A stretch of DNA of 64,000 nucleotides, taken from positions 2,222,001 through 2,286,000 of the forward strand of contig CP073261.1 in the NCBI GenBank assembly GCA_019739335.1, given 5' to 3'. Positions 34,984-52,705 of this stretch are shown here, in pieces. The stretch comes from Erythrobacter sp. (GTDB lineage Bacteria > Pseudomonadota > Alphaproteobacteria > Sphingomonadales > Sphingomonadaceae). Position 1 is the first letter of the stretch. Every line of letters begins with the position of its first letter. Under the pieces are notes generated by a model. That model worked only from the letters and a program-made list of their open reading frames with translations, was not told the DNA's origin and made no database searches. The translations under genes and the position numbers were made by a program.

Positions 34984-35070
34984 GCGGTCGTGGCGGAACT
35001 GGTAGACGCGCAACGTTGAGGTCGTTGTGGGCGAAAGCCCGTGGAAGTTCGAGTCTTCTCGACCGCACCA
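34984..35070 (+). tRNA. tRNA-Leu (anticodon GAG)
   Basis: Acceptor GCGGTCG pairs with CGACCGC, with encoded ACCA at 35067-35070. The D region is TGGCGGAACTGGTAGACGCG, the anticodon loop TTGAGGT gives GAG, a class II variable arm GTGGGCGAAAGCCCGT is present, and the T loop is GTTCGAGTC. The 87-base length suits tRNA-Leu. Confidence 0.96.
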
Positions 35071-35668: not shown

Positions 35669-36658
35669 CTAGTCGGGCGCGTAGATCCGGTCGAGAATTG
35701 CCGATACGTTTCCGACCTGGTGAACGTCGGGATCGAAGCGTGTGCTTCTCGCGAGCGATGTGGCCCAATGGGCGGCGGCCCGCCCGCCCCATTTATCGGG
35801 CGGAGAGGAGAGGCAGGTCCGTGCGGTGCCATTATTCGCGAAGGCTTCGAAATCGTAGAAGCTGCCGCCGATGTTGCGAAACCCGGCGGCTGCTTGCGGG
35901 CCATGGAACACGGCTTCGATCACGGCTTCCTGTCCCGCATGGAGGTTCCACGAACAGGCAAGCCGGAAGCTGGCACCGGTATCAAGATCGAGGTGGGCCA
36001 CTGCATAGTCTTCGACAGCGCCTGCACCGGGTTCAAGCGGGCGGCCATTGGCATAGAGCCGTGAAGTGACACGCTCGACAGCCGGGTAGCCGAGCAGCCA
36101 CATGGCCAGGTCGACAAGGTGAACGCCGAGGTCGATGACGCAACCGCCGCCGGACTGGAAGCGGTCGTAGAACCACGGCTTGTCCGGCCCGTAGGCATTG
36201 TGGAACGTCAGGTCGGCGGCGAATACAGGCCCGGTTCGGCCCTCCTGAATTTCCTTCGCCACAGCCTGAGTAGCGGCAGTGTAGCGATACGACAGGTCCA
36301 CCCCGAGCAAGCGGTCAGCCGCCTGCGCCGCCGCAATGACTCTGCGCGCCTCGGCTTCATTGCGGCCAAGCGGCTTCTGGCAGAACACCGCGATTCCCCG
36401 CTCCAGCGCGGCGATCGCCTGCTGCGCATGCAGCGCGCTGGGCGTGGCGATGACCAGCCCGTCGAGGTCCAGATCGAGCATGGCTTCCAGCGAGGGGACC
36501 GGCTTCGCATCAGGGGCTATCTCCAGCGCCGCGGCCAGACATTCCGGGGAAGGATCGCAGAGCGCGGTCGCACTGACCGCCCCGCTGGCGACCATCGCCT
36601 GCAACCGGTGGCGCCCGATCCAGCCGGTGCCGAGAAAGCCCACGCGCGGCAGCTTCAT
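35669..36658 (-). CDS. Gfo/Idh/MocA-family NAD(P)-dependent oxidoreductase
   Basis: 329 residues. The N-terminal Rossmann fold begins VGFLGTGWIGRHRLQAM; DLDGLVIATPSALHAQQAI and FCQKPLGRNEAEARRVI (the family's EKP motif with Gln for Glu) follow. The catalytic-type segment GGGCVIDLGVHLVDLAMWLL is near residue 170. Family members oxidise or reduce sugars and inositols. It overlaps the upstream dehydrogenase gene by 4 bases and is last in the operon that also encodes myo-inositol-1-phosphate synthase, so an inositol or inositol-derived sugar is a reasonable substrate guess. Confidence 0.9.
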   Translation of the reverse strand: MKLPRVGFLGTGWIGRHRLQAMVASGAVSATALCDPSPECLAAALEIAPDAKPVPSLEAMLDLDLDGLVIATPSALHAQQAIAALERGIAVFCQKPLGRNEAEARRVIAAAQAADRLLGVDLSYRYTAATQAVAKEIQEGRTGPVFAADLTFHNAYGPDKPWFYDRFQSGGGCVIDLGVHLVDLAMWLLGYPAVERVTSRLYANGRPLEPGAGAVEDYAVAHLDLDTGASFRLACSWNLHAGQEAVIEAVFHGPQAAAGFRNIGGSFYDFEAFANNGTARTCLSSPPDKWGGRAAAHWATSLARSTRFDPDVHQVGNVSAILDRIYAPD

Positions 36659-37620
36659 GGATAGAGTACCAGGGCCTTGACGAAGCCGGGCGGCTTGTCG
36701 CGGGTGGCATCGAGCGCCTCGCCGAGTTCTTCGAGCCGATAGATGTGGGTGTAGAGCGGCGCGGGATCGAGCCTGCCGCTGACCACTGCCTCTGCTGCCT
36801 CGCGCATCCCGCGCATCTGCACGGCGAGATCGCGCTCGTGGGCGTTGATCACGTCGACCCCCTTCCAGTTCCAGCCCTGCATGTCGACCTGTCGCGGGCC
36901 GTCCTGGTGATAGCCGGCGACGACGAGCCTGCCGCCGAACGCCACCAGTTCACCCGCCAGATCGAGCGGCCATTGCTTGCCAACGCATTCGATTACCCGT
37001 TCGCACATCGTGCCGTCTGTGAGTTGCTTCGTGGCATCGATGATGGCCTGGTGATCGTCCATCGGGATCACTTCTGCCGCGCCATAGTGCTTCGCCAGCT
37101 CAAGCGACTCCGGGCGGCGCGAGATCGCGATGACGCGCGCCCCGGCATCGCTGGCGAGCTGGGTAAGCACAGCCCCCAGAAAACCGATGCCGATGATGGC
37201 GACGTTTTGCCCCGGCGCGATATTGCTGCGGCGGAAAATGTTGAACGCGCAGCCAAGCGGTTCGCCGGGGAAGGGCTTGCCCTCCAGTTCTGGGGGCAGC
37301 TTGAGCAGCGCCTTGGCATCGGCAAGATCGAACTCGGCGTAGGCGCGGTAGCTCAGCGCTGCCACCCGATCACCCACCCTGACCTCGGAAACCCCCTTCC
37401 CCACGGCCTCCACCACGCCCCACCCTTCGTGCCCCAGATCGCCCGGCGGCAGGGGAAATTCGAGCCAATCGGGCCCAGCCCATGGGCCAAGGTTTGAAGC
37501 GCAGACGCCGCAGCCCTCCAGCCTAATCCGGACCTGCCCCTCGCCGGGTTCGGGCACGTGGATATCAGCCATTCGTACGCTCCCCGGGGCGATGACTTCC
37601 GCCGATTTCATCCGACCCAT
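36655..37620 (-). CDS. Zinc-type alcohol/polyol dehydrogenase (MDR family)
   Basis: 321 residues. GroES-like N-domain with the catalytic cysteine in EGCGVCASNLGPWAG and GHEGWGVVEAVGKGV; Rossmann domain with IIGIGFLGAVLTQLASDAG near 165. The four-cysteine structural zinc lobe usual in alcohol dehydrogenases is absent, which accounts for the short length. The enzyme probably oxidises a polyol or sugar alcohol with NAD(P). It starts 3 bases after the inositol phosphate synthase stop and overlaps the Gfo/Idh gene; the two dehydrogenases may act in series. Confidence 0.88.
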   Translation of the reverse strand: MGRMKSAEVIAPGSVRMADIHVPEPGEGQVRIRLEGCGVCASNLGPWAGPDWLEFPLPPGDLGHEGWGVVEAVGKGVSEVRVGDRVAALSYRAYAEFDLADAKALLKLPPELEGKPFPGEPLGCAFNIFRRSNIAPGQNVAIIGIGFLGAVLTQLASDAGARVIAISRRPESLELAKHYGAAEVIPMDDHQAIIDATKQLTDGTMCERVIECVGKQWPLDLAGELVAFGGRLVVAGYHQDGPRQVDMQGWNWKGVDVINAHERDLAVQMRGMREAAEAVVSGRLDPAPLYTHIYRLEELGEALDATRDKPPGFVKALVLYP

Positions 37621-37623
37621 CGT

Positions 37624-38730
37624 TCAATCCTGCCCGATGAACTGTTCGAGCGCAGCCCAGGCTTCGTCATCGGTGACCTGTTTCGGGGGGTGCTTGCAGA
37701 AATAGGAGGCGGCGGGATGGACCGGCCCTGCCAGCCCGCGATCGCGCGCCAGCTTCGCGCAGCGGATCATGTCGATCGCGACCCCAGCGGAATTCGGGCT
37801 GTCCTCCACCGAGAGCCGCAGTTCGAGGTTCATCGGCACGCCGCCGAACAATTGCCCTTCCATGCGGATGAACGCGACCTTGTTGTCGTTCTGCCAAGCG
37901 ACATAATCGGACGGGCCCACATGGATATGCTCGTCGACCAGCCTTGATGCCGCCACCGATTGCACAGCCTCGGTCTTGGACAGCTTTTTGGACGCGAGGC
38001 GGCTCCGTTCAAGCATGTTGAGGAAATCGGTATTGCCGCCGGTGTTGAGTTGATAGGTTCGTTCCAGCTTCACACCGCGCTTCCTGAACAGGTCGGTCAG
38101 CACGCGGTGCACGATCGTGGCACCGAGCTGCGATTTGATATCGTCTCCGATGATCGGCACCCCGGCCTTGCGGAAGCGCTCGGCCCAGTCGGCATCGCTG
38201 GCAATGAACACCGGGATGTTGTTGACGAAGGCGACCCCGGCTTCGAGCGCGCATTCGGCATAGAATTCGGTGGCCTGTTGTGATCCGACGGGAAGGTAAT
38301 TCACCAGCACGTCGGCTTCGCTTTCCAGCAGCACCTCGATCACTTCCTGCTTGTTCGGTTCTGTCTCCCCGGCGGGTTTGAAGGTTCGGGCTTCCGGGTA
38401 TCCGGCCATGTGCCCGGCGATCCCGTCGAGCGCGCGTCCCATGCGGACCGTGGTTCCCGTCGGCTCGACCCTTTCACAAAAGACCTGCGTGCAATTGGGC
38501 GGCGCGAAGATCGCTTCTGCCACGTCGCGGCCGACCTTGCGCTCGTCGACATCCCAGGCTGCCACCACGTGAATATCTTCCGGACGGTAGCCAGCCACTT
38601 CGGCGTGCATCAGGCCGGTCAGGTCGTTGGCGCCGCCGCGATAATGCGCGAGACCTTGCACCAGCGAACTGGCGCAATTGCCGACGCCGACCAGCGCCAG
38701 CCGGATGCCGCGGGAATCAGGGGACAACAT
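37624..38730 (-). CDS. ino1: myo-Inositol-1-phosphate synthase
   Basis: 368 residues from ATG at 38730 (MLSPDSRGIRLALVGVGNCA); the frame is open to 38904 but that part is antisense of the neighbour. Length and motifs match the short bacterial/archaeal type: VGVGNCASSLVQGL NAD-binding loop, VLVNYLPVGSQQATEFYAEC, GDDIKSQLGATIVHRVL and NTGGNTDFLNMLER, with the active-site lysine region KSQLGAT. It converts glucose-6-phosphate to inositol-1-phosphate using NAD. One base separates it from the upstream glycosidase-like gene. In bacteria it usually feeds phosphatidylinositol, mycothiol or inositol glycosides. Confidence 0.94.
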   Translation of the reverse strand: MLSPDSRGIRLALVGVGNCASSLVQGLAHYRGGANDLTGLMHAEVAGYRPEDIHVVAAWDVDERKVGRDVAEAIFAPPNCTQVFCERVEPTGTTVRMGRALDGIAGHMAGYPEARTFKPAGETEPNKQEVIEVLLESEADVLVNYLPVGSQQATEFYAECALEAGVAFVNNIPVFIASDADWAERFRKAGVPIIGDDIKSQLGATIVHRVLTDLFRKRGVKLERTYQLNTGGNTDFLNMLERSRLASKKLSKTEAVQSVAASRLVDEHIHVGPSDYVAWQNDNKVAFIRMEGQLFGGVPMNLELRLSVEDSPNSAGVAIDMIRCAKLARDRGLAGPVHPAASYFCKHPPKQVTDDEAWAALEQFIGQD

Positions 38731-38731
38731 T

Positions 38732-39667
38732 TCAGGACCTCCCCGCGCGCAGATCACTCGCACGCTTGATGTTTTCTGCAGGGGCGTACCGTTCAACCAT
38801 CCAGGCGCAGAAGTCGGCAAACTGCTGCGGGTCTTTGGCGCAAGAGGTGTGGTGGGCCTCCACGCCGAGATGCTCCGGAGTGAAGCAGAAGGTGACCAGC
38901 ACATCGAAGTCCGCCAGTGCTTCCATCTGCCGGTCGAACCAGTCGAGTGCTCCCGGCCGGAAACTGTCCGCCCATGAAAGTCCTGTGCGCAGCTTGGTCA
39001 CGCCGAGCTCCTTCATCCACCGGACCGCATCGCCGAGCCGGGGATCGTGGAAATGGAACCACTGCATCAGACCCATGCGGTCGGCGTAGCGCCGATAGTG
39101 TTCCAGCGCCGGCTTGGGGGTGCCGTCCTCCCGGATCAGGCCCATGTAGAAGTGGCGGTAATAGCTCGAACCCTCCGCCTCGCGGTGGCGCGTTTCCGCA
39201 CCCCATTCCCGCGGCAGATCGAACAGCGAGTACCAATAGACCTCCGGCACCCGGTCGAGCAGCAGTTCGGCAGTCTTGTCGATGCCGAATACCTGCACTT
39301 CCTCTGCGCCGAAACTGCCCACCCCCACTTCGGTCGCCCAGATCGGCTTGTCCGGAACAACGGCTTCAATCTCGGCAATCTTTTCCGGCCAGGCGTGGAT
39401 CGGCCACAGGTTCCAGTCGAGCGGGAAGCCATGCACCGCCACCACGTCAACATGATCGAGCGCGCCCTGTTTACGCATCCGCGATACCCAATGCGGATCG
39501 ATCGGCGACATTCCGCCGAGCACTCGCGTCAACTGCGGGTTGATCTGCGAGATCGCGCTGCCCGCGCGATGCACGGTGTCCGCATAAATGGCCCAGTCGG
39601 GATCGAGTTCGGGGTTCCAGTGGCTCTTGTTGTTCGGTTCATTCCAGATCATCACGGAATTGATCAT
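38732..39667 (-). CDS. Glycosidase-fold protein with apparently circularly permuted (beta/alpha)8 barrel
   Basis: 311 residues. The ATG at 39667 overlaps the upstream stop (ATGA), so the start is secure, yet the protein opens MINSVMIWNEPNNKSHW: the strand-4 acid/base motif (Glu 10) of clan GH-A glycosidases such as GH39 or GH5. The nucleophile motif ATEVGVGSFG has Glu 113, about 100 residues later as usual, and YWYSLFD near 145 fits strand 8. Residues ~198-295 then read MQWFHFHDP, VTKLRTGLSWADSFRPGALD and FDVLVTFCFTPEHLG, which are the strand 1-3 segments normally found before the NEP motif. Both catalytic acids are kept. Substrate is unknown; the operon suggests a glycoside made by the same locus, or a transglycosylase role. 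Confidence 0.8.
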   Translation of the reverse strand: MINSVMIWNEPNNKSHWNPELDPDWAIYADTVHRAGSAISQINPQLTRVLGGMSPIDPHWVSRMRKQGALDHVDVVAVHGFPLDWNLWPIHAWPEKIAEIEAVVPDKPIWATEVGVGSFGAEEVQVFGIDKTAELLLDRVPEVYWYSLFDLPREWGAETRHREAEGSSYYRHFYMGLIREDGTPKPALEHYRRYADRMGLMQWFHFHDPRLGDAVRWMKELGVTKLRTGLSWADSFRPGALDWFDRQMEALADFDVLVTFCFTPEHLGVEAHHTSCAKDPQQFADFCAWMVERYAPAENIKRASDLRAGRS

Positions 39668-40503
39668 TGCGCGTCTCCCGCCTTGACTTGCGCGCGCGCG
39701 GGATAGACGGCAGCCGGCCCGTATTGCGCGTAGGGGACCTCGGTTACCCGGCAGAGGTAGACCTCCGGCTCAGGCTGCTGTTCGATGGTGAAGCCAGCCG
39801 CGCGGAGCATGGCCTGGCTGCAGGCCGCATTCGGTGCCCACCAATTTGTCCAGTCCTGCGCGAATTCGCGCTCGATGAAGTGGAGCTTCGGATAGGCCGG
39901 ATTGTCGAAGTAGTCGGGCGGCTGGGTTGTCCCGGGCTTGTGGAACGGGTGATCCTCGGGAACCTGCAACACTGCTTCGGTGCCCTGCTGCATCGTCTGG
40001 AACAGCATCAGGTCGCCGGCGACATGTTCGCGGATCAGGTCGAGCGCCAGCAGCGGGTGCCGCAGATGGTAGAGCACCCCCATAAACACGACGAGATCGA
40101 ACTTCTCCCCCAGACTACCGACGTCGTAAACCGACAAGTTGCGGTACTCGATCTCGGAAAATCCCAACGTGTCGGAAGCCAGCTGCGCCTGTTCGAGATA
40201 GCGATCGTCACTATCGATGCCGAGCACCCGGCTGGCGCCGCGCCGCTTCATTTCGATCGCGTAGAAGCCCGCATTGCAGCCGATGTCGAGCACTGACTTT
40301 CCGGTCAGGTCGGCAGGAATTGCGTCAGCGAAGCGGTCGAACTTGAAGGAGGGATAGTCGCCGAGGAAATGATCCGGCGCTGTGCGAATGCCATGTCCGA
40401 GATCGATATTCTGAAACCAGGGTTGCAGCTCCTCCACCTGCTTTCGCAGCTGAGATGCGCCGGCGTCTTTCACGATCCGCGCTGCTGATCCTGACCTGCT
40501 CAT
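39664..40503 (-). CDS. SAM-dependent methyltransferase (resembles the Rta_06860/TIGR04290 family)
   Basis: 279 residues. The class I motif is VLDIGCNAGFYAIEMKRRGA with LGIDSDDRYLEQAQLA; LVVFMGVLYHLRHPLLALD is motif post-II. The preceding QVEELQPWFQNIDLGHGIRT and DHFLGDYPSFKFDRF also recall CmoB-like carboxymethyltransferases, but the gene context is sugar biosynthesis. It overlaps genes on both sides by 4 bases. It probably methylates a sugar or inositol hydroxyl. The family name is recalled from memory and should be taken as a lead. Confidence 0.85.
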   Translation of the reverse strand: MSRSGSAARIVKDAGASQLRKQVEELQPWFQNIDLGHGIRTAPDHFLGDYPSFKFDRFADAIPADLTGKSVLDIGCNAGFYAIEMKRRGASRVLGIDSDDRYLEQAQLASDTLGFSEIEYRNLSVYDVGSLGEKFDLVVFMGVLYHLRHPLLALDLIREHVAGDLMLFQTMQQGTEAVLQVPEDHPFHKPGTTQPPDYFDNPAYPKLHFIEREFAQDWTNWWAPNAACSQAMLRAAGFTIEQQPEPEVYLCRVTEVPYAQYGPAAVYPARAQVKAGDAQ

Positions 40504-41096
40504 GCCGTGTACTCGTTGAGCGAAAGCACGCGGCCGCCCCAGTCGCCGAGTTGCACGCGGCTCACTGACGCAGGTGCGATCTCGAAGCGAAGCACATAGT
40601 CGAGCGACAATCCCAGAATGCCGGCAATGGCAGCCCGGATGGTGTCACAGTGGCTGACGAAAGCGACTGTCGCGCCAGCAGCGGTTTCGGCGATTGCCCG
40701 CATAAAGTCAGTCATGCGCTGTTGAACCTCTGTCATTGTTTCTCCTCGCGGGGCGCGCGCTTGCGCGCGGTTGTTGTTCCAACGCTGCCAGTCCGGATCG
40801 CTGGCAAGTTGGTCGAAGTGCTTCCCCGTCCAGTCACCGAAATCGATCTCGTCGAGGGCGTCCGAAACCCTGGGCGCCATCCCGAGCGATGCGCCGATTG
40901 CCTGTGCTGTCTCACGTGCGCGGAGCACGGGACTGGTATGGATTGCAGCTACGCCCTCGGCTGACGACCAGCGCGCGAGGCGTTCTGCCTGCAGCAGCCC
41001 GGAAGAACTCAATCGGCCTCCGGGGGCTCGACCGGACAGGACCCGGCCAAGCTCTGCATGGGCGGCATGCCTGATCAGGAGGATGGTAACGGTCAT
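40500..41096 (-). CDS. Histidine phosphatase (phosphoglycerate-mutase-like) family protein
   Basis: 198 residues. The phosphohistidine motif is LLIRHAAHAELG (RHA in place of RHG) near residue 8; SSSGLLQAERLARWSS, HTSPVLRARETAQAIG, LDEIDFGDWTGKHFDQL and the second histidine in VAFVSHCDTIRAAIAG complete the fold. First gene of the minus operon. Since the locus makes inositol-1-phosphate but contains no inositol monophosphatase, this protein could remove that phosphate or one from a later intermediate; that is inference. Confidence 0.88.
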   Translation of the reverse strand: MTVTILLIRHAAHAELGRVLSGRAPGGRLSSSGLLQAERLARWSSAEGVAAIHTSPVLRARETAQAIGASLGMAPRVSDALDEIDFGDWTGKHFDQLASDPDWQRWNNNRAQARAPRGETMTEVQQRMTDFMRAIAETAAGATVAFVSHCDTIRAAIAGILGLSLDYVLRFEIAPASVSRVQLGDWGGRVLSLNEYTA

Positions 41097-41352: not shown

Positions 41353-42465
41353 TTGTCCGAACGCATTTTGATAACCGGCGGCGGCGGCTTTATCGGTAAA
41401 GCTGTCAGTCGCGAGCTGCTGCAGCGCGGCCACCAGGTTCGCGTCCTCGATAGTTTGATCGAACAGGTCCACGGTCGGAACGGCCAACCGAGCTTCGCGT
41501 CAGACGTGGAATTTATCCGTGCCGATGTGCGCGATGGAAATGCCGTCGCTGCTGCGCTGCGCGGGATCGACAGTGTCATCCACCTCGCCGCCGAAGTCGG
41601 CGTGGGGCAGTCGATGTATGAGGTGGAGCGATACACTTCCACCAACGATGTCGGCACAGCCGTCCTGTTCGAACGGCTGATCGATCACCCGGTGCGCCGG
41701 GTAGTCACTGCATCTTCGATGAGCATCTACGGTGAGGGACTTTATCGGAACGCCGACGGTGCGCTGGTGGAAGATGCATCTCGCAGCAGCCTGCGCGACG
41801 GACAGGCGAACTGGGAGCCGGTCGACCAGCAGGGCCGCCCTCTGGCGCCGGTCGCCACACCCGAATGGAAAAGACCAAACCTCGCTTCGATCTACGCGCT
41901 TAACAAGTATGTGCAGGAGCAGATCACCCACATCATGGGCGCTCCCTATGGTGTCGAAAGCGTCTGCCTGCGACTGTTCAATGTCTACGGGCCGGGACAG
42001 GCTCTCTCCAATCCCTACACCGGCGTGCTGGCGATCTTCGCATCACGACTGCTCAACGGCCAGTCTCCGATGATCTTCGAGGATGGTCAACAACGCCGTG
42101 ACTTCGTGCACGTGCGCGACGTGGCCCGCGCGTTTGCCGAAGCCCTTTTCCACCCCGATGCTGCCGGCGGCACCTTCAATATCGGATCAGGGCATGATCG
42201 CTCCATCGCGAGCGTAGCAAACGACCTCGCAATAGCGATGGGACGCGAAGGCATCGGAGCCGAGACCGTGGGTAAGGCGCGCACCGGAGACATAAGGCAC
42301 TGTTTTTGCGACACTACCCTGGCGCGCGAAGTGCTCGGCTTCGAGGCAAGTGAGGATTTCGAGGCGGGCCTTGCCGATCTCGCGCAATGGGTCGCCAAGC
42401 AAAAGGCGGAGGACCGCGTCAGCGAGGCGCGGAGCGAACTTGAACGCCGCGGACTTGTGGCATGA
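41353..42465 (+). CDS. NAD-dependent epimerase (dTDP-rhamnose 4-epimerase-like extended SDR)
   Basis: 370 residues, starting with TTG at 41353 preceded by AGGAAA; the protein begins MSERILITGGGGFIGKAV. Features are the GGxGxxG NAD site, HLAAEVGVGQSMYEVERYTS, VTASSMSIYGEGLY and catalytic Tyr/Lys in SIYALNKYVQEQ. VEDGQQRRDFVHVRDVARAF (observed as EDGQQRRDFVHVRDVARAF) is typical of nucleotide-sugar epimerases. The closest pattern I know is the dTDP-L-rhamnose 4-epimerase-like group, but substrate cannot be fixed from sequence. First of seven overlapping genes. Confidence 0.88.
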   Translation: MSERILITGGGGFIGKAVSRELLQRGHQVRVLDSLIEQVHGRNGQPSFASDVEFIRADVRDGNAVAAALRGIDSVIHLAAEVGVGQSMYEVERYTSTNDVGTAVLFERLIDHPVRRVVTASSMSIYGEGLYRNADGALVEDASRSSLRDGQANWEPVDQQGRPLAPVATPEWKRPNLASIYALNKYVQEQITHIMGAPYGVESVCLRLFNVYGPGQALSNPYTGVLAIFASRLLNGQSPMIFEDGQQRRDFVHVRDVARAFAEALFHPDAAGGTFNIGSGHDRSIASVANDLAIAMGREGIGAETVGKARTGDIRHCFCDTTLAREVLGFEASEDFEAGLADLAQWVAKQKAEDRVSEARSELERRGLVA

Positions 42466-43538
42466 GTGTCGGCGCGGAAAGCACCATACTGGTTACCGGT
42501 GGAGCTGGATTCGTTGGCTCCAACCTTGCCGACCGCCTGGCCGCGCGGGGTCATCGGGTGCGAGTACTCGATCACCTGGGCCGACCGGGGGTTGAAAGCA
42601 ATCTGGAATGGCTGTGCCATTCGCATGGCAGTCTGATCGAGCCGGTCATCGGCGATATCCGGGATCGCGCCACGGTCACCAAGGCAGCCCGGGGAATTGG
42701 AGCAGCTTTCCACTTCGCGGCGCAAGTGGCGGTGACGACCAGTATGGAAGACCCGCGCGAGGATTTTGCGGTGAACGTGGTGGGAACCTTCAACCTGCTG
42801 GATTCGCTTCGCCAGCAGAACAGTCATGCTGCTCTGATATTCGCATCAACGAACAAGGTTTACGGCAACCTTGCGGGAGTTCCGCTCTACCTGACGGATC
42901 GCGGGTATCGGGCATCCGACCCGAAGATTGCCGAACACGGGGTGCCAGAGGACCAGCCGCTGTGCTTCCACACCCCGTATGGCTGCTCGAAAGGTGCCGC
43001 CGACCAATATGTTCTCGACTACGGGCGCAGCTTCGGAATGCGCACGGCCGTGTTGCGGATGAGCTGCATTTATGGCGAGCGGCAATTGGGCACCGAAGAT
43101 CAGGGCTGGGTTGCGCATTTCCTGATCCGCGCGCTGGCCGGGGAGACAATCACGCTGTTCGGAGACGGAGAGCAGGTTCGCGATGTTTGCGACGTCCGCG
43201 ATACCTGCGATGCCTACCTTGCCATGCTCGACCGCATCGATGCGGTTCAGGGGCGCGCGTTCAACTGGGGGGGCGGCGCGGAAAATGCGATCAGCCTGCT
43301 CGGCCTGATCGAGGAAATCGCCCGGATTACCGGGCGCCGCCCTGCCATAGAGTTTGCCGATACCCGTCCGGGGGACCAGCGCTGGTTTGTCGCGGACACG
43401 CGCAAGATCGATCAGGCGCTTGGGCTGAAGCCGAGGACTCCGTGGCGAGATGGGGTTCGTAACCTTGCGGACTGGCTGCATCAGTCGCGCCGTGCAGCCG
43501 CACCGGCGCTCGCACCAAGTGCGAGGGCGAACGCATGA
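42462..43538 (+). CDS. NAD-dependent epimerase, CDP-paratose 2-epimerase-like
   Basis: 358 residues, overlapping the previous stop by ATGA. GGAGFVGSNLADRLAARGH is the NAD site. IFASTNKVYGNLAG, HTPYGCSKGAADQYVLDYGR (catalytic Tyr and Lys) and LRMSCIYGERQLGTEDQGWV are close to CDP-paratose/tyvelose 2-epimerases (RfbE), whose unusual C2 chemistry is at a non-activated carbon. The substrate here may differ, because no other CDP-sugar genes are present. Confidence 0.88.
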   Translation: MSVGAESTILVTGGAGFVGSNLADRLAARGHRVRVLDHLGRPGVESNLEWLCHSHGSLIEPVIGDIRDRATVTKAARGIGAAFHFAAQVAVTTSMEDPREDFAVNVVGTFNLLDSLRQQNSHAALIFASTNKVYGNLAGVPLYLTDRGYRASDPKIAEHGVPEDQPLCFHTPYGCSKGAADQYVLDYGRSFGMRTAVLRMSCIYGERQLGTEDQGWVAHFLIRALAGETITLFGDGEQVRDVCDVRDTCDAYLAMLDRIDAVQGRAFNWGGGAENAISLLGLIEEIARITGRRPAIEFADTRPGDQRWFVADTRKIDQALGLKPRTPWRDGVRNLADWLHQSRRAAAPALAPSARANA

Positions 43539-44638
43539 CCCTGTATCCCCTGCATGTCCTTATGACGACAGACGCGGTCGGCGGAGTATGGCAGTATTCA
43601 GTCACTCTTTCGCGCGAATTAGCGAACCGGGGCCATCGTATCACACTGGCCGTTTTGGGCCCGCCACCCGATCTTGCGCAGCGCGCGCAAGCGGAGGCCG
43701 TTCCCGGCCTTTCGCTTCGGGAGACAGGGCTTCCGCTGGATTGGCTGGCCGATGGTCCGGCGCAGGTGAAGCACTCAACCGGGGAACTGGCGGACCTCGC
43801 CCGGAGGATCGGTGCCGACCTGATCCATTGCAACAGTCCGGCCCTTTGCGCTGGCGCAAGGTTTCCGGTGCCGGTCATCGCAGTCGCTCACGGATGCATC
43901 GCCACCTGGTGGAAGGCTGCGCGTCGCGAACCGCTCGCACCCGAACTGCAATGGCACGCTGCGCTGATGCAGGAAGGCTTGAAGGCTGCCGACATGATCG
44001 TGGCACCTAGCGCCAGCTTCGCTCGCCAAGTCGCTCAGACATACGGTCTGCCGCGCTCACCCATGGTTGTTCACAACGGCCGCAACCCGCTCGGCTCCGA
44101 TGCTTCTGCCGGCCAGCTGAACGTCGCCCTGACTGTCGGGAGATTGTGGGACCCGGTGAAGAATGTCGCGGTCCTCGATCAGGCGGCGGCGCAGCTGGAC
44201 ATCGGCTTCCTTGCCGCGGGCGCTCTGGTCGGTCCGCACGGGGAAACCTGTGCTCCCGAAAACCTGCAGTGCCTTGGCTATCAGAGCGAGGCAGCAATCG
44301 ACCGGCTGCTCAGACTGCAACCGGTCTTCGTTTCTGCCGCAACATTCGAGCCGTTCGGGCTGGCAGTTCTGGAAGCAGCATCGGCAGGATGTGCGCTGGT
44401 GCTTTCCAACATCGATACCTTCCGCGAGCTGTGGGAAGGCGCTGCACTGTTCGTGGATAGTGGCGATGCCGAAGGGTTTGCCCGCCAAATCAACGCCCTC
44501 ATCGCGGATCCCTCGCGGCGCAAGGACTTGGGTGAAGCCGCCCGGAAGCGCAGCGCGAATTACTCCCCGGCGGCAACGGTCGAAGCGATGTGCGGCATTT
44601 ACCAGTCGCTGCTGGCTGCGCGGGAGGTGGCAGCATGA
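43535..44638 (+). CDS. GT4-family glycosyltransferase
   Basis: 367 residues, overlapping both neighbours by 4 bases. The N-domain starts MTLYPLHVLMTTDAVGGVWQ and contains IAVAHGCIATWWKAARREPL; the C-domain has ALTVGRLWDPVKNVAVLDQ, NLQCLGYQSEAAIDRLL and the sugar-nucleotide-binding SAATFEPFGLAVLEAASAGC (EX7E). It would transfer a sugar from a nucleotide donor to an unknown acceptor made by this locus. It is cytosolic and has no transmembrane helix. Confidence 0.9.
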   Translation: MTLYPLHVLMTTDAVGGVWQYSVTLSRELANRGHRITLAVLGPPPDLAQRAQAEAVPGLSLRETGLPLDWLADGPAQVKHSTGELADLARRIGADLIHCNSPALCAGARFPVPVIAVAHGCIATWWKAARREPLAPELQWHAALMQEGLKAADMIVAPSASFARQVAQTYGLPRSPMVVHNGRNPLGSDASAGQLNVALTVGRLWDPVKNVAVLDQAAAQLDIGFLAAGALVGPHGETCAPENLQCLGYQSEAAIDRLLRLQPVFVSAATFEPFGLAVLEAASAGCALVLSNIDTFRELWEGAALFVDSGDAEGFARQINALIADPSRRKDLGEAARKRSANYSPAATVEAMCGIYQSLLAAREVAA

Positions 44639-45747
44639 AGCTGGCCTATTTCACGCATTCGCTGGCCTCCTGCTGGAACCACGGCAATGCCCACTTCCTG
44701 CGCGGCGTGCTCGATGAACTCATTGTGCGGGGACATGAAGTTGCGGTCTTCGAACCGCAAGGCGCCTGGAGCCTGGCCAATCTGCTGCGCGATCATGGAT
44801 TACAAGGCCTTGCAGTCTGGCACGATCGCTATCCGAGGCTCAGTTCGACCGAATACCCGTCAGACGCCGATCTGGAGGAACTGATTGGCGATAGTGACCT
44901 GATCATCGTGCATGAGTGGAACGAGCCGAAGCTGATTGCTCGACTCGGACAATTGCGGAAACGCAGAGGGAACTTCCGCCTGCTGTTCCATGATACCCAT
45001 CACCGCGCGGTGAGCGCACCCGAGGACATGCAGGCTTTCGACCTATCCGGGTTCGACGGAGTGCTGGCTTTCGGCGAAGCACTGTCGGAGGTCTATCGCG
45101 GCTGGGGCTGGGGCAATCGCGTGTGGACCTGGCACGAAGCCGCCGATGTCCGCCGGTTCCATCCGCCCGCACAGGAAAGCGAGCGCGAAGGGCTGGTCTG
45201 GATCGGCAACTGGGGGGATGGCGAGCGCAGCGAGGAACTCGTCACTTTCCTGCTAGACCCCGCCCGGCAGGGTGGTCTTGATCTCGATATCTATGGCGTG
45301 CGCTATCCCGCGGAGGCGAAGGAGACCTTGGCGCGATACGGCGCCGAGTATCGCGGCTGGGCACCCAACGCCCTCGCGCCAGACATTTTCGCGAGGCACT
45401 TGGCCACGGTTCACGTACCGCGCCGCTACTATACGCAGGTGCTTCCCGGCATTCCGACCATCCGGGTCTTCGAAGCGCTTGCCTGCGGCTTACCCCTCGT
45501 GAGCGCGCCGTGGGACGATGCCGAAAGCCTGTTCCGAACAGGCGAGGATTATCTTGTTGCCCGCAGCGGCAAAGAGATGACGGAAATCCTACGCGCGCTG
45601 GCAGAAGATGCCGGATTGCGGGCCTCGCTCGCTGCCAGCGGTCGGGAGACCATCCTGCAACGGCACACCTGCGCGCAACGCGTGGACGAGTTGCTGGCGA
45701 TCGCCGCCTCGCTCGAAACTGAAACCAGCCTGAGGAAATCCGCATGA
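44635..45747 (+). CDS. CgeB-like glycosyltransferase, paralogue 1 of 3
   Basis: 370 residues from ATG at 44635, overlapping the previous gene by 4 bases. The N-terminus MKLAYFTHSLASCWNHGNAH, then FLRGVLDELIVRGHEVAVFE, matches the pattern of the next two genes. The C-domain has VPRRYYTQVLPGIPTIRVFE and ALACGLPLVSAPWDDAESLF, the donor-site region of CgeB/DUF3880-type GT-B enzymes. These transferases occur in spore-coat, maturation and glycan loci; donor and acceptor are unknown. Confidence 0.87.
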   Translation: MKLAYFTHSLASCWNHGNAHFLRGVLDELIVRGHEVAVFEPQGAWSLANLLRDHGLQGLAVWHDRYPRLSSTEYPSDADLEELIGDSDLIIVHEWNEPKLIARLGQLRKRRGNFRLLFHDTHHRAVSAPEDMQAFDLSGFDGVLAFGEALSEVYRGWGWGNRVWTWHEAADVRRFHPPAQESEREGLVWIGNWGDGERSEELVTFLLDPARQGGLDLDIYGVRYPAEAKETLARYGAEYRGWAPNALAPDIFARHLATVHVPRRYYTQVLPGIPTIRVFEALACGLPLVSAPWDDAESLFRTGEDYLVARSGKEMTEILRALAEDAGLRASLAASGRETILQRHTCAQRVDELLAIAASLETETSLRKSA

Positions 45748-46835
45748 AGATCGCCTTCTACGGCTCCAGCCTGCTGTCGGCCTACTGGAACGGCGCGGCG
45801 ACCTATTACCGAGGAATCCTGCGCGCGCTCGCCGATCGCGGGCACGACATCTCTTTTTACGAGCCTGACGCGTTCGACCGGCAGAAGCATCGCGATATCG
45901 ATCCGCCGGACTGGGTCCGCTCGGTTGTCTACCCTGCCACGACTGAGGGCCTCCATTCCGTGCTGGCGGAAGCCGGTGCGGCAGACATCGTCGTAAAGGC
46001 CAGCGGTGTCGGAGTATTCGACCGAGAATTGCTCGAAGGCATTCTCCGCGAGGCAAACCCCGATGGGATGACCGTCTTCTGGGATGTCGATGCTGCCGCG
46101 ACGCTGGACGAAATGCGCAGCGATCCTGAACATCCTGTGCGCGCGGCTCTACCGCATCTCGATGCCGTGTTCACTTACGGCGGCGGACCTCCGGTCATCG
46201 AAGCCTATCGCGCATTCGGTGCGCGCCGCCGCGTGCCGATCTACAATGCGCTCGATCCATCGACCCACCATCCGGTCGATCCCGATCCGCGCTTCGCCTG
46301 CGATTTGGGTTTCCTCGCGAATAGCCTGCCCGATCGCGAAGCGCGGGTGGAGGAGTTCTTCCTGCGCGCGGCGCAACTGCGCCCGTCGAGCAGGTTCATG
46401 CTTGGCGGAAACGGCTGGCAAGACAAGGCGCTGCCACCGAACGTCCGCGCCATCGGCCACGTCGGTACCGTTGATCACAACGCCTTCAATTGCACGCCGC
46501 GCGCAGTGCTGAACGTGGCGCGTGATTCGATGGCGAGTGTGGGCTTTTCTCCCGCAACCCGGGTGTTCGAAGCGGCCGGCGCCGGAGCCTGCCTGATTAC
46601 CGATGCATGGGAAGGGATCGAGCAGTTCCTCAAACCGGGTGAGGAAGTCCTTATCGCCCGCGACGGGAAGGACGTTGCCGAAATCCTTGCCGGTCTCAGC
46701 CGCGAACGCGCGGAAAGGATCGGTGCCGCTGCGCTCGATCGGGTTCTGGCGAAGCATACCTATTCGCTCCGCGCTGTCGAAGTCGATGCTGCGTTCAACA
46801 AAATTCTGGAGCACAAGCACGAGGAAGTGGCATGA
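45744..46835 (+). CDS. CgeB-like glycosyltransferase, paralogue 2 of 3
   Basis: 363 residues, ATGA overlap on both sides. It begins MKIAFYGSSLLSAYWNGAAT and YYRGILRALADRGHDISFYE, parallel to its neighbours. Middle motifs are HLDAVFTYGGGPPVIEAYRA and LGFLANSLPDREARVEEFF; the donor-site end is RVFEAAGAGACLITDAWEGI followed by EQFLKPGEEVLIARDGKDV. It belongs to the same CgeB-like family as the genes before and after it. Confidence 0.88.
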   Translation: MKIAFYGSSLLSAYWNGAATYYRGILRALADRGHDISFYEPDAFDRQKHRDIDPPDWVRSVVYPATTEGLHSVLAEAGAADIVVKASGVGVFDRELLEGILREANPDGMTVFWDVDAAATLDEMRSDPEHPVRAALPHLDAVFTYGGGPPVIEAYRAFGARRRVPIYNALDPSTHHPVDPDPRFACDLGFLANSLPDREARVEEFFLRAAQLRPSSRFMLGGNGWQDKALPPNVRAIGHVGTVDHNAFNCTPRAVLNVARDSMASVGFSPATRVFEAAGAGACLITDAWEGIEQFLKPGEEVLIARDGKDVAEILAGLSRERAERIGAAALDRVLAKHTYSLRAVEVDAAFNKILEHKHEEVA

Positions 46836-47929
46836 AGCTCGTTGTTTTGGGTCTCAGCCTGTCCTCCTCATGGGGTAACGGCCACGCGACGACCTTTCGC
46901 GCCCTGCTCGAAGCATTCGCCGCGCGCGGTCACGAGGTGTTGTTCCTCGAACGGACGCAACCCTGGTACGCCGCGAACCGCGACCTTACCGATCCAGAAT
47001 ATTGTCGGCTGGAATATTACGCCGATCTCGGCGGGCTCGAGCAATGGCGTGCTCAGGTCGAGGCAGCGGACGCGGTGATGGTCGGCTCCTACGTGCCCGA
47101 CGGTGTCGCGGTCGGACGATGGGTCCAGCAGACCGCGCAGGGGACCACCTGCTTCTATGACATCGATACCCCGGTGACCTTGGCCAAGCTCGCGCGCCGC
47201 GATCACGAATATCTGTCGCCCGATCTGATCCCCGGCTATGACATCTACTTCTCGTTCACCGGCGGCCCCACGCTTGGCCGGCTGGAAGAGGAGTTCGGCG
47301 CGCCGCGGGCACGCCCGCTCTACTGCTCGGTCGACACCGCGCGATACCGTCCGCTTGACGTGCCGCTCCGCTGGGACCTGTCGTATCTCGGCACCTACAG
47401 TCCGGACCGGCAGCCGACGCTCGAACGGCTGTTGCTGGAGCCGGCTCGCCGCCGACCCGATCTGCGCTTTGTCGTCGCCGGGCCGAAGTACCCGGAGGAA
47501 ATCGACTGGCCGGAAAATGTGGAGCGGATCGAGCATATTCCCCCTGCGGACCATCCCGCGTTCTATGCTGCTTCGCGCTTCACACTAAACGTCACGCGGG
47601 CGGACATGATCGCCGCAGGGTGGTCCCCATCGGTACGGCTGTTCGAAGCGGGAGCTTGCGCGACACCGATCATTTCCGACCGGTGGAGGGGCATCGATAC
47701 CTTGTTCGCACCGGGCAAGCAGATCGTGTTGGCCGAACACCCCGAAGATGTCCTCACAGCGCTCGACGGCGACGCCAGGCAAATGGGATCTTCGGCGCGT
47801 GAGGAAGTGCTCGCCAATCACAGTTCCGAGCGACGTGCCGAGCAACTCGAAAAGGAACTCGAGCAGGCGAGGAGCGCCGTCTCGATTACGGGAAATAGAA
47901 GGAATGTGCCGCATCATGTATATTCGTAA
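46832..47929 (+). CDS. CgeB-like glycosyltransferase, paralogue 3 of 3
   Basis: 365 residues, overlapping the previous gene by 4 bases and the next by about 14. It begins MKLVVLGLSLSSSWGNGHAT and TFRALLEAFAARGHEVLFLE. Other motifs are CFYDIDTPVTLAKLARRDHE, YDIYFSFTGGPTLGRLEEEF, WDLSYLGTYSPDRQPTLERL and the donor site RLFEAGACATPIISDRWRGI. With two sister genes upstream it suggests successive addition of related sugars to one acceptor. Confidence 0.88.
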   Translation: MKLVVLGLSLSSSWGNGHATTFRALLEAFAARGHEVLFLERTQPWYAANRDLTDPEYCRLEYYADLGGLEQWRAQVEAADAVMVGSYVPDGVAVGRWVQQTAQGTTCFYDIDTPVTLAKLARRDHEYLSPDLIPGYDIYFSFTGGPTLGRLEEEFGAPRARPLYCSVDTARYRPLDVPLRWDLSYLGTYSPDRQPTLERLLLEPARRRPDLRFVVAGPKYPEEIDWPENVERIEHIPPADHPAFYAASRFTLNVTRADMIAAGWSPSVRLFEAGACATPIISDRWRGIDTLFAPGKQIVLAEHPEDVLTALDGDARQMGSSAREEVLANHSSERRAEQLEKELEQARSAVSITGNRRNVPHHVYS

Positions 47930-48989
47930 CGGGCTCACCCTGGTTGCCGGTGGCGCGGGGTTCGTCGGCTCGCACCTCTGTCGCGCCTTGCTCGAAGAGG
48001 GTCATCGTGTCGTCTGTATCGACAACCTGCAAACATCGCGCGCGTCGAACCTGCTTGGTTTGCAGAACCATGCGCATTTCACATTCATCAAGGCCGACAT
48101 CACCGAACCGCTCCCCGATGAAGTCACTCGTCTTGAGGGACAGATCACCCGGATCTACAATCTGGCCTGCGCCGCTTCTCCGGTACTTTATCAGGAGAAT
48201 CCGGAACACACGATGCTCACCAGTGTGCTCGGCACCAATCGCCTCCTGCGTCTGGCGGAAGTGTCAGGGGCACGCTTCCTGCTAGCTTCGACCAGCGAGG
48301 TCTACGGCGATCCTGAAGTGCATCCCCAGCCCGAAGATTACCGCGGCCACGTCAATTGCACCGGGCCTCGCGCTTGTTATGACGAAGGGAAACGCGCGGC
48401 AGAGACGCTCGCTTTCGACTACGCCCGCTCCGGGCGGGCCGAGGTCCGCGTGGCCCGCATCTTCAATACCTACGGCCCCAACATGCGTATCGACGATGGG
48501 CGCGTGATATCGAACCTCGCCTGCCAGGCACTCTCGGGCGAGCCTCTGACCGTCTACGGCGATGGCAGCCAGACGCGCAGCTTCTGCTATGTTGCGGATA
48601 CGGTCGACGGGCTCCGCAGGTTGATGGAATGCCCTTTGGCGGAAATGGAACCCGTCAACATCGGCAATCCCGACGAAATCACCATCAGGCAGCTGGTCAG
48701 CGCGCTGGCGAGGATTATCGGTCATCCGCTCGATCTCAATTTCCGCGCGCTCCCCACTGATGACCCGCAACGACGCCGCCCGGTCATCGATCGTGCCCGC
48801 GACCTGCTTGGCTGGACTCCGCAAACCTCCCTTGAAGACGGGCTTGAGCTTACGCTGGGATGGTTTGCGCGGGAACTGAAGAGCAATCACCCGCAACAGC
48901 TTGTCGAGCGGCATGGCCACGAGCGCGTCTTGCGATCCGCCATGGGCGAAAAGGAGCCTGCCGGAACCGCAGTTCCGCAAAGGATGTAA
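47916..48989 (+). CDS. UDP-glucuronate decarboxylase-like SDR (UDP-xylose synthase family)
   Basis: 357 residues from ATG at 47916; ATG at 47904 is an alternative but sits directly against AAGGA. The family motifs are LVAGGAGFVGSHLCRALLEE, DNLQTSRASNLLGLQNHAHF, FLLASTSEVYGDPEVHPQPE and the catalytic YDEGKRAAETLAFDYAR, with ARIFNTYGPNMRIDDGRVIS. UXS enzymes decarboxylate UDP-glucuronate to UDP-xylose, so the locus can probably supply a pentose donor to its glycosyltransferases. It overlaps the preceding gene, and is last of the plus operon. Confidence 0.9.
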   Translation: MYIRNGLTLVAGGAGFVGSHLCRALLEEGHRVVCIDNLQTSRASNLLGLQNHAHFTFIKADITEPLPDEVTRLEGQITRIYNLACAASPVLYQENPEHTMLTSVLGTNRLLRLAEVSGARFLLASTSEVYGDPEVHPQPEDYRGHVNCTGPRACYDEGKRAAETLAFDYARSGRAEVRVARIFNTYGPNMRIDDGRVISNLACQALSGEPLTVYGDGSQTRSFCYVADTVDGLRRLMECPLAEMEPVNIGNPDEITIRQLVSALARIIGHPLDLNFRALPTDDPQRRRPVIDRARDLLGWTPQTSLEDGLELTLGWFARELKSNHPQQLVERHGHERVLRSAMGEKEPAGTAVPQRM

Positions 48990-50248: not shown

Positions 50249-50310
50249 CCTCCAACACGAAAGCAATGCCCCGGGGCGGGGCGGAAATACGCCCCACGAA
50301 AGGTCATGCG

Positions 50311-51174
50311 ATGAAAACGATCGACACCATCCTCCGCAACGATACCCCCCATTGGGTCGGTGACGGCTTTCCCGTTCGCTCGCTCTTCAGCTACCACGGC
50401 GATACGGCAGCGATCAGCCCGTTCCTGTTGTTCGACTATGCCGGGCCGTGGAATTTCGATCCCGTGAAGGGTTCTCCGCGCGGCGTGGGCGAGCATCCTC
50501 ACAAGGGCTTCGAGACCGTTACCATCGTCTATGACGGCGAAGTCAGTCACCGCGACTCCACCGGCGGGGGCGGCACCATCGGAGCGGGCGAAGTCCAGTG
50601 GATGACTGCCGGGTCCGGCGTGCTGCACGAGGAGTTCCATTCGCCCGGCTATTCGAAGACCGGCGGCCCCTTCCGCATGGTACAACTGTGGGTCAATCTG
50701 CCCGCAAGGGACAAGCTGACCCCGGCGCGGTACCAGGCAATCACGCGCGACATGATCCCCGAGGCCACTTTCGAAAGTGGTCGCGCACGGGTCATCGCTG
50801 GCGAGTTCGAAGGGATGGAGGGGCCGGCGAGCACCTTCACACCGATCAATTTGTGGGATGTTCGGCTCGAGGCCGATGCGCAGATCACCCTCCCCCTGCC
50901 GGAGGGGCACACGACCATGATCGCGGTGCTCTCGGGTCACGTCACGATCGATGGCCAGGGCGTTCGGGAAGCCGAGATTGCCCGGCTCTCCACCGACGGC
51001 GAGGGCGCGGCGATCACGGCTGATGGCGATGCTATGCTACTGGTGATGACGGGCGAACCGATCAACGAACCGGTATTCGGTTACGGTCCCTTCGTGATGA
51101 ACACAGAAGCCGAAATTCGCGAAGCGATCGCGGAATTCAACGCAGGCAAGTTCGGCGCCCTCGCGCCGGCCTGA
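50311..51174 (+). CDS. Pirin family protein
   Basis: 287 residues from ATG at 50311, with GAAAGGTC upstream. The N-terminal cupin has the pirin metal signature: GVGEHPHKGFETVTIVYDGE, VSHRDSTGGGGTIGAGEVQW and TAGSGVLHEEFHS, supplying three His and one Glu. A C-terminal RmlC-like half begins near ARVIAGEFEGMEGPASTF. Pirins are iron-binding cupins; some have quercetinase activity or act as redox-sensitive regulators. It is divergent from HxlR and followed by a good terminator. Confidence 0.92.
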   Translation: MKTIDTILRNDTPHWVGDGFPVRSLFSYHGDTAAISPFLLFDYAGPWNFDPVKGSPRGVGEHPHKGFETVTIVYDGEVSHRDSTGGGGTIGAGEVQWMTAGSGVLHEEFHSPGYSKTGGPFRMVQLWVNLPARDKLTPARYQAITRDMIPEATFESGRARVIAGEFEGMEGPASTFTPINLWDVRLEADAQITLPLPEGHTTMIAVLSGHVTIDGQGVREAEIARLSTDGEGAAITADGDAMLLVMTGEPINEPVFGYGPFVMNTEAEIREAIAEFNAGKFGALAPA

Positions 51175-51278: not shown

Positions 51279-52163
51279 ATGATCGAACGCATAATCGACA
51301 AACGCACACATGACCTTGGTGGCGGGTTCGAGGTCGGCCGCGTGCTTCCCTTCCGCGCCCGTCGCACGGTCGGACCCTATATTTTCTTCGATCACATGGG
51401 ACCGGCAGATCTCGCTCCGGGATTCCCGCGCGAAATGGACGTGCGCCCGCATCCGCATATCGGCATCTCTACGGTCACTTATCTCTACGATGGAGCCCTG
51501 ACCCACCGCGACAGCCTGGGTGTGACGCAAGATATCCGGCCGGGCGAAGTCAACTGGATGGTGACCGGCAGCGGCATCACCCATTCCGAACGCTTCGATC
51601 ACGCTCGCAAGCACGGGGCGCACATGCACGGTATCCAGGCCTGGGTTGCCCTGCCGGTCGAGCACGAGGAGGCCAATCCTGCATTCTACCACCACGCCGG
51701 GTCCGTCGAATTGCCGACCTGGGAAGAGAAGGGCCTGCGCGGCCGCCTGATCGCGGGCAGTGCCGAGGGAATGCGATCGGCGGTCCAGGTCCACAGCCCG
51801 CAATTCTACATGCACTTGGATATGGATGCAGGCGCAAGCCGCACGCTTCCAGCGGAGTATAGGGAACGGGCGGTCTACGTTGCGGCCGGAACCGCGGAAG
51901 TTGCGGGGCAGGTCTTGCGAACTGGTCAGATGGCTGTGCTTGAGCCTGGCAAGGACGTTTCCGTATCGACCGGGGAAGCGGCTACCATCATGGTCTTGGG
52001 TGGCGATCCTATTGGCGAGCGCTTCATGCTTTGGAACTTCGTCAGCTCGTCGAAAGACCGAATTGAACAGGCCAGGCAAGACTGGACGCAGGGGCGCATG
52101 AAGCTGCCCGATACCGACGACAAAGAATTCACGCCATTTCCCGAAGGGCGCGATTACGGCTGA
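51279..52163 (+). CDS. Pirin family protein, second copy
   Basis: 294 residues. Cupin motifs are FEVGRVLPFRARRTVGPYIF, VRPHPHIGISTVTYLYDGAL, THRDSLGVTQDIRPGEVNWM and GSGITHSERFDH. The usual metal-ligand Glu after the last His is displaced (THSER rather than LHEE), so metal binding may be altered. The sequence is only distantly related to the first pirin and is closer to the YhhW/YhaK-like branch. It lies downstream of the first pirin's terminator and has AGGAAATC upstream, so it may have its own promoter. Confidence 0.9.
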   Translation: MIERIIDKRTHDLGGGFEVGRVLPFRARRTVGPYIFFDHMGPADLAPGFPREMDVRPHPHIGISTVTYLYDGALTHRDSLGVTQDIRPGEVNWMVTGSGITHSERFDHARKHGAHMHGIQAWVALPVEHEEANPAFYHHAGSVELPTWEEKGLRGRLIAGSAEGMRSAVQVHSPQFYMHLDMDAGASRTLPAEYRERAVYVAAGTAEVAGQVLRTGQMAVLEPGKDVSVSTGEAATIMVLGGDPIGERFMLWNFVSSSKDRIEQARQDWTQGRMKLPDTDDKEFTPFPEGRDYG

Positions 52164-52460: not shown

Positions 52461-52649
52461 AAACACTGTGGCGACTTTTACGAACGCTGACCAATTGCTA
52501 TATTATGCCGGACTCACGAAGCAAATGCCGCTGCTCGTGCCAACAGTTCGCAAAGCCATACTCCCATTTGCTCGACCTGCAGAGATTGTGGGGCTGACGC
52601 CAAGTTAGACGAGCGGACGAGCTCAGGCGGGCGCCTTTTGGGAATGTGG

Positions 52650-52679
52650 GCGCAGACCAAGATTGCGCAGACCAAGTTA
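52650..52679 (+). promoter_or_regulatory. 15-bp direct repeat before the AraC gene
   Basis: GCGCAGACCAAGATT (52650-52664) is followed directly by GCGCAGACCAAGTTA (52665-52679), 26 bases before the start codon. Direct repeats are typical half-sites of AraC dimers, but a chance duplication is possible. Confidence 0.4.
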
Positions 52680-52705
52680 ACGGCCGAAACATTGGAGACA
52701 CAACA

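Follow-up and report, generated by a model that had tools for sequence, protein, structure and literature searches.

A probable circularly permuted clan GH-A-type glycosidase barrel encoded beside epimerase and glycosyltransferase genes in Erythrobacter sp.

The window analysed here is a 64,000-nucleotide stretch of Erythrobacter sp. (assembly GCA_019739335.1, contig CP073261.1, positions 2,222,001 to 2,286,000). In it, a minus-strand gene running from 39667 down to 38732 encodes, by translation of the open reading frame (ORF), a protein of 311 residues, and lies between a methyltransferase gene and an inositol-3-phosphate synthase-like gene, near a divergent operon of epimerases and glycosyltransferases (Table 1). 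Very probably, the product is a naturally circularly permuted domain of the clan GH-A type (GH, glycoside hydrolase), predicted to fold as a closed (beta/alpha)8 barrel and likely to be an active retaining beta-glycosidase. The protein begins with MINSVMIWNEPNN, and its motifs follow in the order NEP (containing Glu10), TEV (containing Glu113), and then WFHFHDP, KLRTGLSW and LVTFCFTPEHLG. Its ATG shares ATGA (39664-39667) with the TGA of the methyltransferase gene, and there is no earlier ATG, GTG or TTG between the preceding in-frame stop and this start. An earlier note on this DNA had described the start at the NEP motif, the nucleophile Glu113, the later strand 1-3 segments and the overlapping start codon, and all of these were found in place.

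Clan GH-A enzymes form (beta/alpha)8 barrels with strands 1-8 in order and hydrolyse beta-glycosides with retention, using an Asn-Glu acid/base at the end of strand 4 and a Glu nucleophile at the end of strand 7. In the permuted protein the order is 4-5-6-7-8-1-2-3, so it is a permuted derivative of the clan rather than an ordinary member. The rotated order also accounts for the poor annotation of the family. Pfam covers part of the barrel with PF11790 (Glyco_hydro_cc, GH128 type; profile positions 67-209 of 237, 21.7 bits, cut-off 21); the scores of three relatives fall under this cut-off, and the precomputed label is borne by 8 of the best 120 listed homologues. No match was obtained with NCBIfam (E up to 0.01), with PF01229 (GH39) or with GH70 family models (Pfam E up to 1; NCBIfam E up to 0.01); with PF01229, one of three relatives reached 12.7 bits (cut-off 26) and two gave none. 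Database records call the relatives beta-xylosidase, glycosyl hydrolase or hypothetical protein, and the first of these names carries no evidential weight for function.

Searches for the domain of the usual strand order gave 1634 of the 7989 scored proteins of fusion length (the candidates sharing most words) and 413 of 1688 when limited to shorter proteins. Both pieces of the domain stood in normal order in 233 of 240 listed proteins and in permuted order in none; the remaining seven gave a single piece at the thresholds used, in the case of P0320 since the start of this first piece falls slightly beyond the set limit. The longer relatives, such as WP_014747405.1 of Tistrella mobilis, whose annotation names an epimerase only, have the same domain with equivalent catalytic residues in the same kind of cluster. 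However, their strand order is normal and the domain forms the N-terminal part of a chain of some 680 residues, with the epimerase at the C-terminus, whereas the permuted form is a separate gene. Shorter relatives, for example P0268 (311 residues) and P0341 (334 residues), are closer in identity but again normal in order; some of them carry a precomputed GH1 label (PF00232), and some may be cut by contig ends.

When the cut point was moved along the normal-order domain of P0139 and each rotation was scored by the permuted-family profile, the top score (149.6 bits) fell on the cut directly before HLELWNEPNN, in front of strand 4. Rotated in this way, P0139 gave a single match spanning profile positions 7-296 and was thus collinear with the permuted family after one rotation. 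The unrotated domain gave two partial matches (90.8 and 51.9 bits), and the lowest-scoring cut among those listed gave 65.9 bits. Rotation raised the best single match in all 105 usable epimerase fusions (15 of the 120 were left out since their domain end was not recognised), from a median of 82.7 to 133.0 bits, the gain per fusion being 1.6 to 62.5 bits; the maximum among 500 shuffles was 5.0 bits. Among the 182 of 240 normal-order proteins within the completeness limits (58 were outside), identity to the window protein after rotation was 44% (117/266) for P0268, 42.5% for P0341 and 33% as the median of the fusions. Profile-profile comparison of the permuted and normal-order forms gave a probability of 100 and an E of 3.5e-45, limited to residues 5-194 because that is the part a sequential aligner can cover. 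The similarity of the C-terminal third amounted to 46-52 bits in the seven fusions displayed and up to 98.5 bits in the displayed shorter normal-order proteins.

In a single-sequence search of the PDB, residues 6-193 of the permuted protein fell on residues 135-327 of PslG, and residues 202-250 fell, very weakly (-0.8 bits), on 26-80. The family profile (45 sequences) matched PslG, a solved GH39-type enzyme, in two pieces of reversed order with a whole-sequence E of 2.7e-7: positions 4-155 on 133-302 (25.0 bits) and 201-296 on 25-130 (7.3 bits). Together with the rotation scan and the models described below, these pieces bear out the proposal that strands 4-8 precede strands 1-3 in the chain.

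The predicted model of the permuted protein has eight barrel strands, a mean predicted local distance difference test score (pLDDT) of 84.5 and a predicted template modelling score (pTM) of 0.86. A normal-order relative, predicted separately, also has eight, and the two sets correspond one to one in rotated order. Asn9-Glu10, His79, Glu113, Tyr146 and Arg227 occupy equivalent places in both models: Asn9-Glu10 corresponds to Asn120-Glu121 at the end of strand 4, and Glu113 to Glu228 within strand 7 (223-229) of the normal-order model. The earlier note had placed barrel strands 1-3 within residues 198-295, and the prediction indeed puts three strands there (199-201, 225-231 and 255-261), which map onto strands 1, 2 and 3 of the normal-order model. 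After the last of them the model shows helices only (280-294 and 298-309), without the C-terminal beta-sandwich of the GH39 type. The chain runs from strand 4 to strand 8, then on into strands 1, 2 and 3 of the normal-order relatives, and is predicted to close as a complete barrel. The new ends are predicted to fall in the helix 3-strand 4 loop, which is on the barrel side opposite the active site, while residues ~186-198 would join the old ends. The ends of a normal TIM (triosephosphate isomerase) barrel lie close together in general.

Such a barrel is pseudo-symmetric, and the C-terminal part might resemble strands 1-3 by chance or convergence. In fact, sequential structure aligners pair the model with numerous TIM barrels to which it is unrelated, in VIA across almost the whole model. 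We give this explanation hardly any credence, since the similarity of the C-terminal third is specific (46-98.5 bits against 5.0 for shuffles) and each of the eight strands, like the presumed catalytic set, has its counterpart in the normal-order model. A domain-swapped dimer, in which strands 4-8 of one chain are completed by strands 1-3 of another, is less far-fetched, as the structure prediction covered the monomer only. However, a single chain was predicted as a complete barrel with the pTM given above and the joining stretch is short, and we consider the swapped dimer quite improbable.

The permuted protein belongs to a conserved family. All 8000 candidates scored in the protein search were under an E of 0.001 (the best 120 were listed), and at least 581 stretches in the scan of species genomes encode a relative. 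From these, the best 80 by score, all from other genomes, were kept, and every count out of 80 loci below refers to them; the genera include Sphingomonas, Sphingobium, Novosphingobium, Porphyrobacter, Paracoccus, Rubellimicrobium, Roseomonas and Microvirga, among others. The rotated order was found in 80/80 of these loci as a single-piece match from query residue 1 or 2 to at least 292. In 75 of them an ATG, GTG or TTG stands exactly at residue 1, and the preceding codon is a stop in two. The copy of genome G265 (L003) has one in-frame TGA. A class-wide search, in which all candidates were scored, gave a match in 13 of 289 genomes: six have the permuted gene as a single full-length match (100% for the window's own, 61-74% for the others), in six the match falls into two normally ordered pieces (28-37% identity), and one has a distant partial match only. 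The permuted gene and the fusion occurred together in none of the 12 genomes carrying either form; the permuted genome G336 has an additional distant normal-type match in a separate, longer protein. In the other genome search at most five first-look candidates per genome were scored, so a missing second copy there is no evidence.

One might suspect truncation or local rearrangement of a glycosidase gene, or an artefact of assembly, since among 61 relatives' genomes searched only the window's own has the permuted gene. However, 80 loci of other genomes have the identical start and order, at least 581 stretches encode a relative, the presumed catalytic residues are invariant, and the methyltransferase gene lies directly before the permuted gene in 76 of the 80 loci. 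We therefore regard truncation or artefact as next to impossible. Normal-order homologues do exist, yet the rotated order common to all 80 loci means that there was no local rearrangement. The view that the gene is not a truncation has thus held, and the search for homologues beginning at the NEP motif recovered a family of which many members share the operon genes; the rotation that the earlier note had described is real, and it is the property of a conserved family and not a single oddity.

The tree, built without an outgroup, sampled 27 permuted proteins, 25 fusions and 45 shorter normal-order relatives. The permuted rows formed one side of one branch with a support of 100/100, and all of the 200 bootstrap trees (100%) contained this branch, but the bootstrap had yet to settle. 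One permutation event is the simplest reading of this tree. The family would then have a single origin, in which a normal-order gene was probably duplicated in tandem and the outer ends were afterwards lost. Alignment A3 held 45 sequences picked from those at hand, A2 held 13 and A5 held 16.

Several observations weigh against this interpretation as a permuted, active barrel of single origin. The choice of the 80 loci by score biases the sample towards the window's own form, and the permuted clade sits on a long stem (2.04 changes per column in a tree without an outgroup). The match to the first piece of PslG is weak by itself (7.3 bits), and the normal-order domain alone had no PDB match in a single-sequence search with E up to 1. 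The model was predicted from 45 sequences that are closely related (68-88% identical to the first of them), and its pLDDT drops below 50 in two loops (83-86 and 156-168). With Foldseek, the 24 solved matches at E up to 0.001 were TIM-barrel and other proteins and included no glycosidase; GH10 xylanases appeared first at rank 25, and TM-scores were mostly 0.2-0.5. This outcome fits a rotated topology seen through a sequential aligner, without proving it. Finally, as to the pathway role, which is read from the gene neighbourhood only, the inositol-phosphate synthase gene is present in only 44 of the 80 loci.

Residue conservation was followed in 201 permuted proteins, namely 121 from the window and the protein search and 80 from the loci, some of which may be one gene. 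Glu113, His79, Arg227, Trp145 and Tyr146 were present in 201/201, and Glu10 in 200/201, the exception lacking that part, in agreement with the claim that both catalytic acids are kept. Of the 240 normal-order proteins, 233 have Glu in the Glu10 column, 4 have Lys, 1 has Trp and 2 have a gap; for the Glu113 column the figures are 227 Glu, 2 Arg and 11 gaps. By analogy with clan GH-A, Glu10 would be the acid/base and Glu113 the nucleophile. Since both acids and the other conserved residues are present, a retaining beta-glycosidase is likely. Two further residues are fixed in all 201 permuted proteins: Cys261 (38885-38887, at the end of strand 3), where the normal forms mostly have His (159) or Trp (39), and His205 (39051-39053, after strand 1), where they mostly have Arg (170), with His in 42. 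This pattern hints that the substrate may be different or refined. The same two residues, together with the fusion of the normal-order counterpart to an epimerase, could also speak for a catalytically dead protein serving as a binding or scaffold subunit for epimerases or glycosyltransferases. However, the conservation of both acids, Arg227, His79, Tyr146 and Trp145 in 200 or 201 of 201 proteins exceeds what a scaffold needs, and we think a dead subunit improbable.

Natural permutations of glycosidase barrels are rarely described, and GH70 is the only one we found in the open literature. Relative to GH13, GH70 enzymes have the order N-alpha3-beta4 ... beta8-alpha8-beta1-alpha1-beta2-alpha2-beta3-C; they are large extracellular multidomain enzymes derived from GH13 alpha-amylase barrels (PMC11046441), their permutation being credited to MacGregor and colleagues 1996 (cited in PMC6274110), and the family includes non-permuted members (PMC9732880). 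The GH70 glucansucrases are thus like the present family in being naturally permuted glycosidase barrels with non-permuted members. However, they stem from the alpha-amylase clan, which is unrelated to clan GH-A, and their breakpoint is before helix 3, whereas that of the permuted protein is one element later, after helix 3. The carbohydrate esterase domain of PgaB is also permuted (PMC13366581). In the open literature on permutation together with glycosidases or TIM barrels we found no permuted clan GH-A enzyme, which is no proof that none has been described. The earlier note knew of no described natural permutation of this kind in such a locus; as far as these sources go, this stands for clan GH-A, whereas for glycosidase barrels in general GH70 is a precedent (PMC11046441, PMC6274110). 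By sequence profile, the closest solved enzymes are PslG and the GH39 beta-xylosidases, which share the clan GH-A acids but differ in their normal order, their length of 416-520 residues and their C-terminal beta-sandwich (PMC6933502).

The genes around the permuted gene are listed in Table 1; counts of neighbours in the 80 loci are lowered by contig ends and by the length fetched. Wherever the TIGR04290 methyltransferase was found (76 loci), its gene was the one mapped immediately ahead of the permuted gene. In Sinorhizobium meliloti (L024:8330-9963) the permuted gene directly follows the histidine phosphatase gene, without the methyltransferase. No paper on TIGR04290, TIGR04295 or Rta_06860 was retrieved from the open literature.

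Table 1. Permuted gene and surrounding features in the window (positions of the window; counts refer to the 80 kept loci)
Feature	Position	Strand	Basis or occurrence
Probable circularly permuted glycosidase-type (beta/alpha)8 domain, 311 residues	38732..39667	-	ORF, rotation scan, predicted model
Residues 1-193, normal-barrel strands 4-8 (predicted 2-7, 47-50, 75-79, 109-114, 143-146)	39089..39667	-	model
Residues 194-298, normal-barrel strands 1-3 (predicted 199-201, 225-231, 255-261)	38774..39088	-	model
Asn9-Glu10, presumed acid/base motif, normally strand 4 end	39638..39643	-	role inferred from clan GH-A
Glu113, presumed nucleophile, normally strand 7 end	39329..39331	-	role inferred from clan GH-A
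TIGR04290 family methyltransferase, upstream neighbour, ATGA overlap	39664..40503	-	365.4 bits, cut-off 300
Histidine phosphatase superfamily gene	40500..41096	-	66/80 loci
Inositol-3-phosphate synthase-like gene	37624..38730	-	451 bits, under NCBIfam equivalog cut-off 638; 44/80 loci
Zinc-type dehydrogenase	36655..37620	-	54/80 loci
Gfo/Idh/MocA-type oxidoreductase	35669..36658	-	57/80 loci
EPI1, NAD-dependent epimerase/dehydratase, divergent operon	41353..42465	+	63/80 loci
EPI2, NAD-dependent epimerase/dehydratase	42462..43538	+	63/80 loci
Four glycosyltransferase genes: GT1 43535-44638, GT2 44590-45747, GT3 45744-46835, GT4 46832-47929	43535..47929	+	56-61/80 loci each
Epimerase/dehydratase, likely UDP-glucuronate decarboxylase type; true start probably later than ORF start	47748..48989	+	annotation in relatives at this place; 31/80 loci

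In the normal-order relatives the glycosidase domain is the N-terminal part of the EPI2 counterpart. In 8/8 distinct loci (L009 and L021, apparently one record, and L010 and L116, of one genome, were counted once each) it is fused in frame with EPI2, and EPI1 lies directly before in 7/8. The cluster of Tistrella mobilis has EPI1, the domain-EPI2 fusion, a TIGR04295 radical SAM gene, four glycosyltransferases, a UDP-glucuronate decarboxylase and, further on, a TIGR04290 methyltransferase. Over the 5-19 kb retrieved for each of the 80 permuted loci, no second copy, in normal order, was found. That one domain occurs in two topologies within the same kind of cluster speaks for a shared role, and the permuted enzyme may do the job of the normal-order domain fused to EPI2. 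The N-terminus is already strand 4 and leaves no room for a signal peptide, so the enzyme would act in the cytosol. PslG is likewise encoded in a polysaccharide operon. The gene neighbourhood, from which the role is read, suggests a cytosolic glycan- or glycoside-building pathway, in which the enzyme could trim, edit or transfer a sugar on the glycan or glycoside made by the epimerases and four glycosyltransferases encoded nearby. In clusters that include the synthase and dehydrogenases, the product is possibly built on an inositol-like core.

Taking the two permuted barrels together, we see about even chances that the helix 3/strand 4 region is a privileged breakpoint of glycosidase barrels (in clan GH-A and GH70) and that a rotated enzyme replaced the epimerase-fused one in the same pathway and spread as a separate gene, one type of cluster running with either topology. 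The family would be a second, independent permuted glycosidase barrel, in another clan than GH70. With its living normal-order relatives (up to 44% identity) and the presence of both forms in one kind of cluster, it would offer a good natural experiment for studying how permutation affects folding, oligomerisation, the evolution of the active site and the architecture of operons.

The cluster may be a genomic island, because the similarity of many congeners to the window stops at the 3' end of a tRNA-Leu (gag) gene (34984-35070, about 600 bases before the cluster) and the permuted gene did not turn up in any of 36 genomes of the genus, a set that includes incomplete ones. Within the window, a search for attachment repeats longer than 11 bases gave none. 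Near the normal-order cluster of Tistrella mobilis (L127:15869-35851) there are genes for a sigma factor, topoisomerase IB, Ku, LigD and cold-shock proteins, and near the permuted cluster of Sphingobium yanoikuyae pKN1 (L023:14865-16345) there are a manganese catalase gene and a DUF892 gene; a link of the cluster to stress survival is possible. Beyond the glycosyltransferase operon of the window lie two genes (50266-51174 and 51279-52163) whose products we take to be pirin-like. They are followed by an overlapping pair (52646-53644 and 53641-54552), presumably encoding AraC-type regulators, whose C-terminal halves are nearly identical and which likely arose by tandem duplication.
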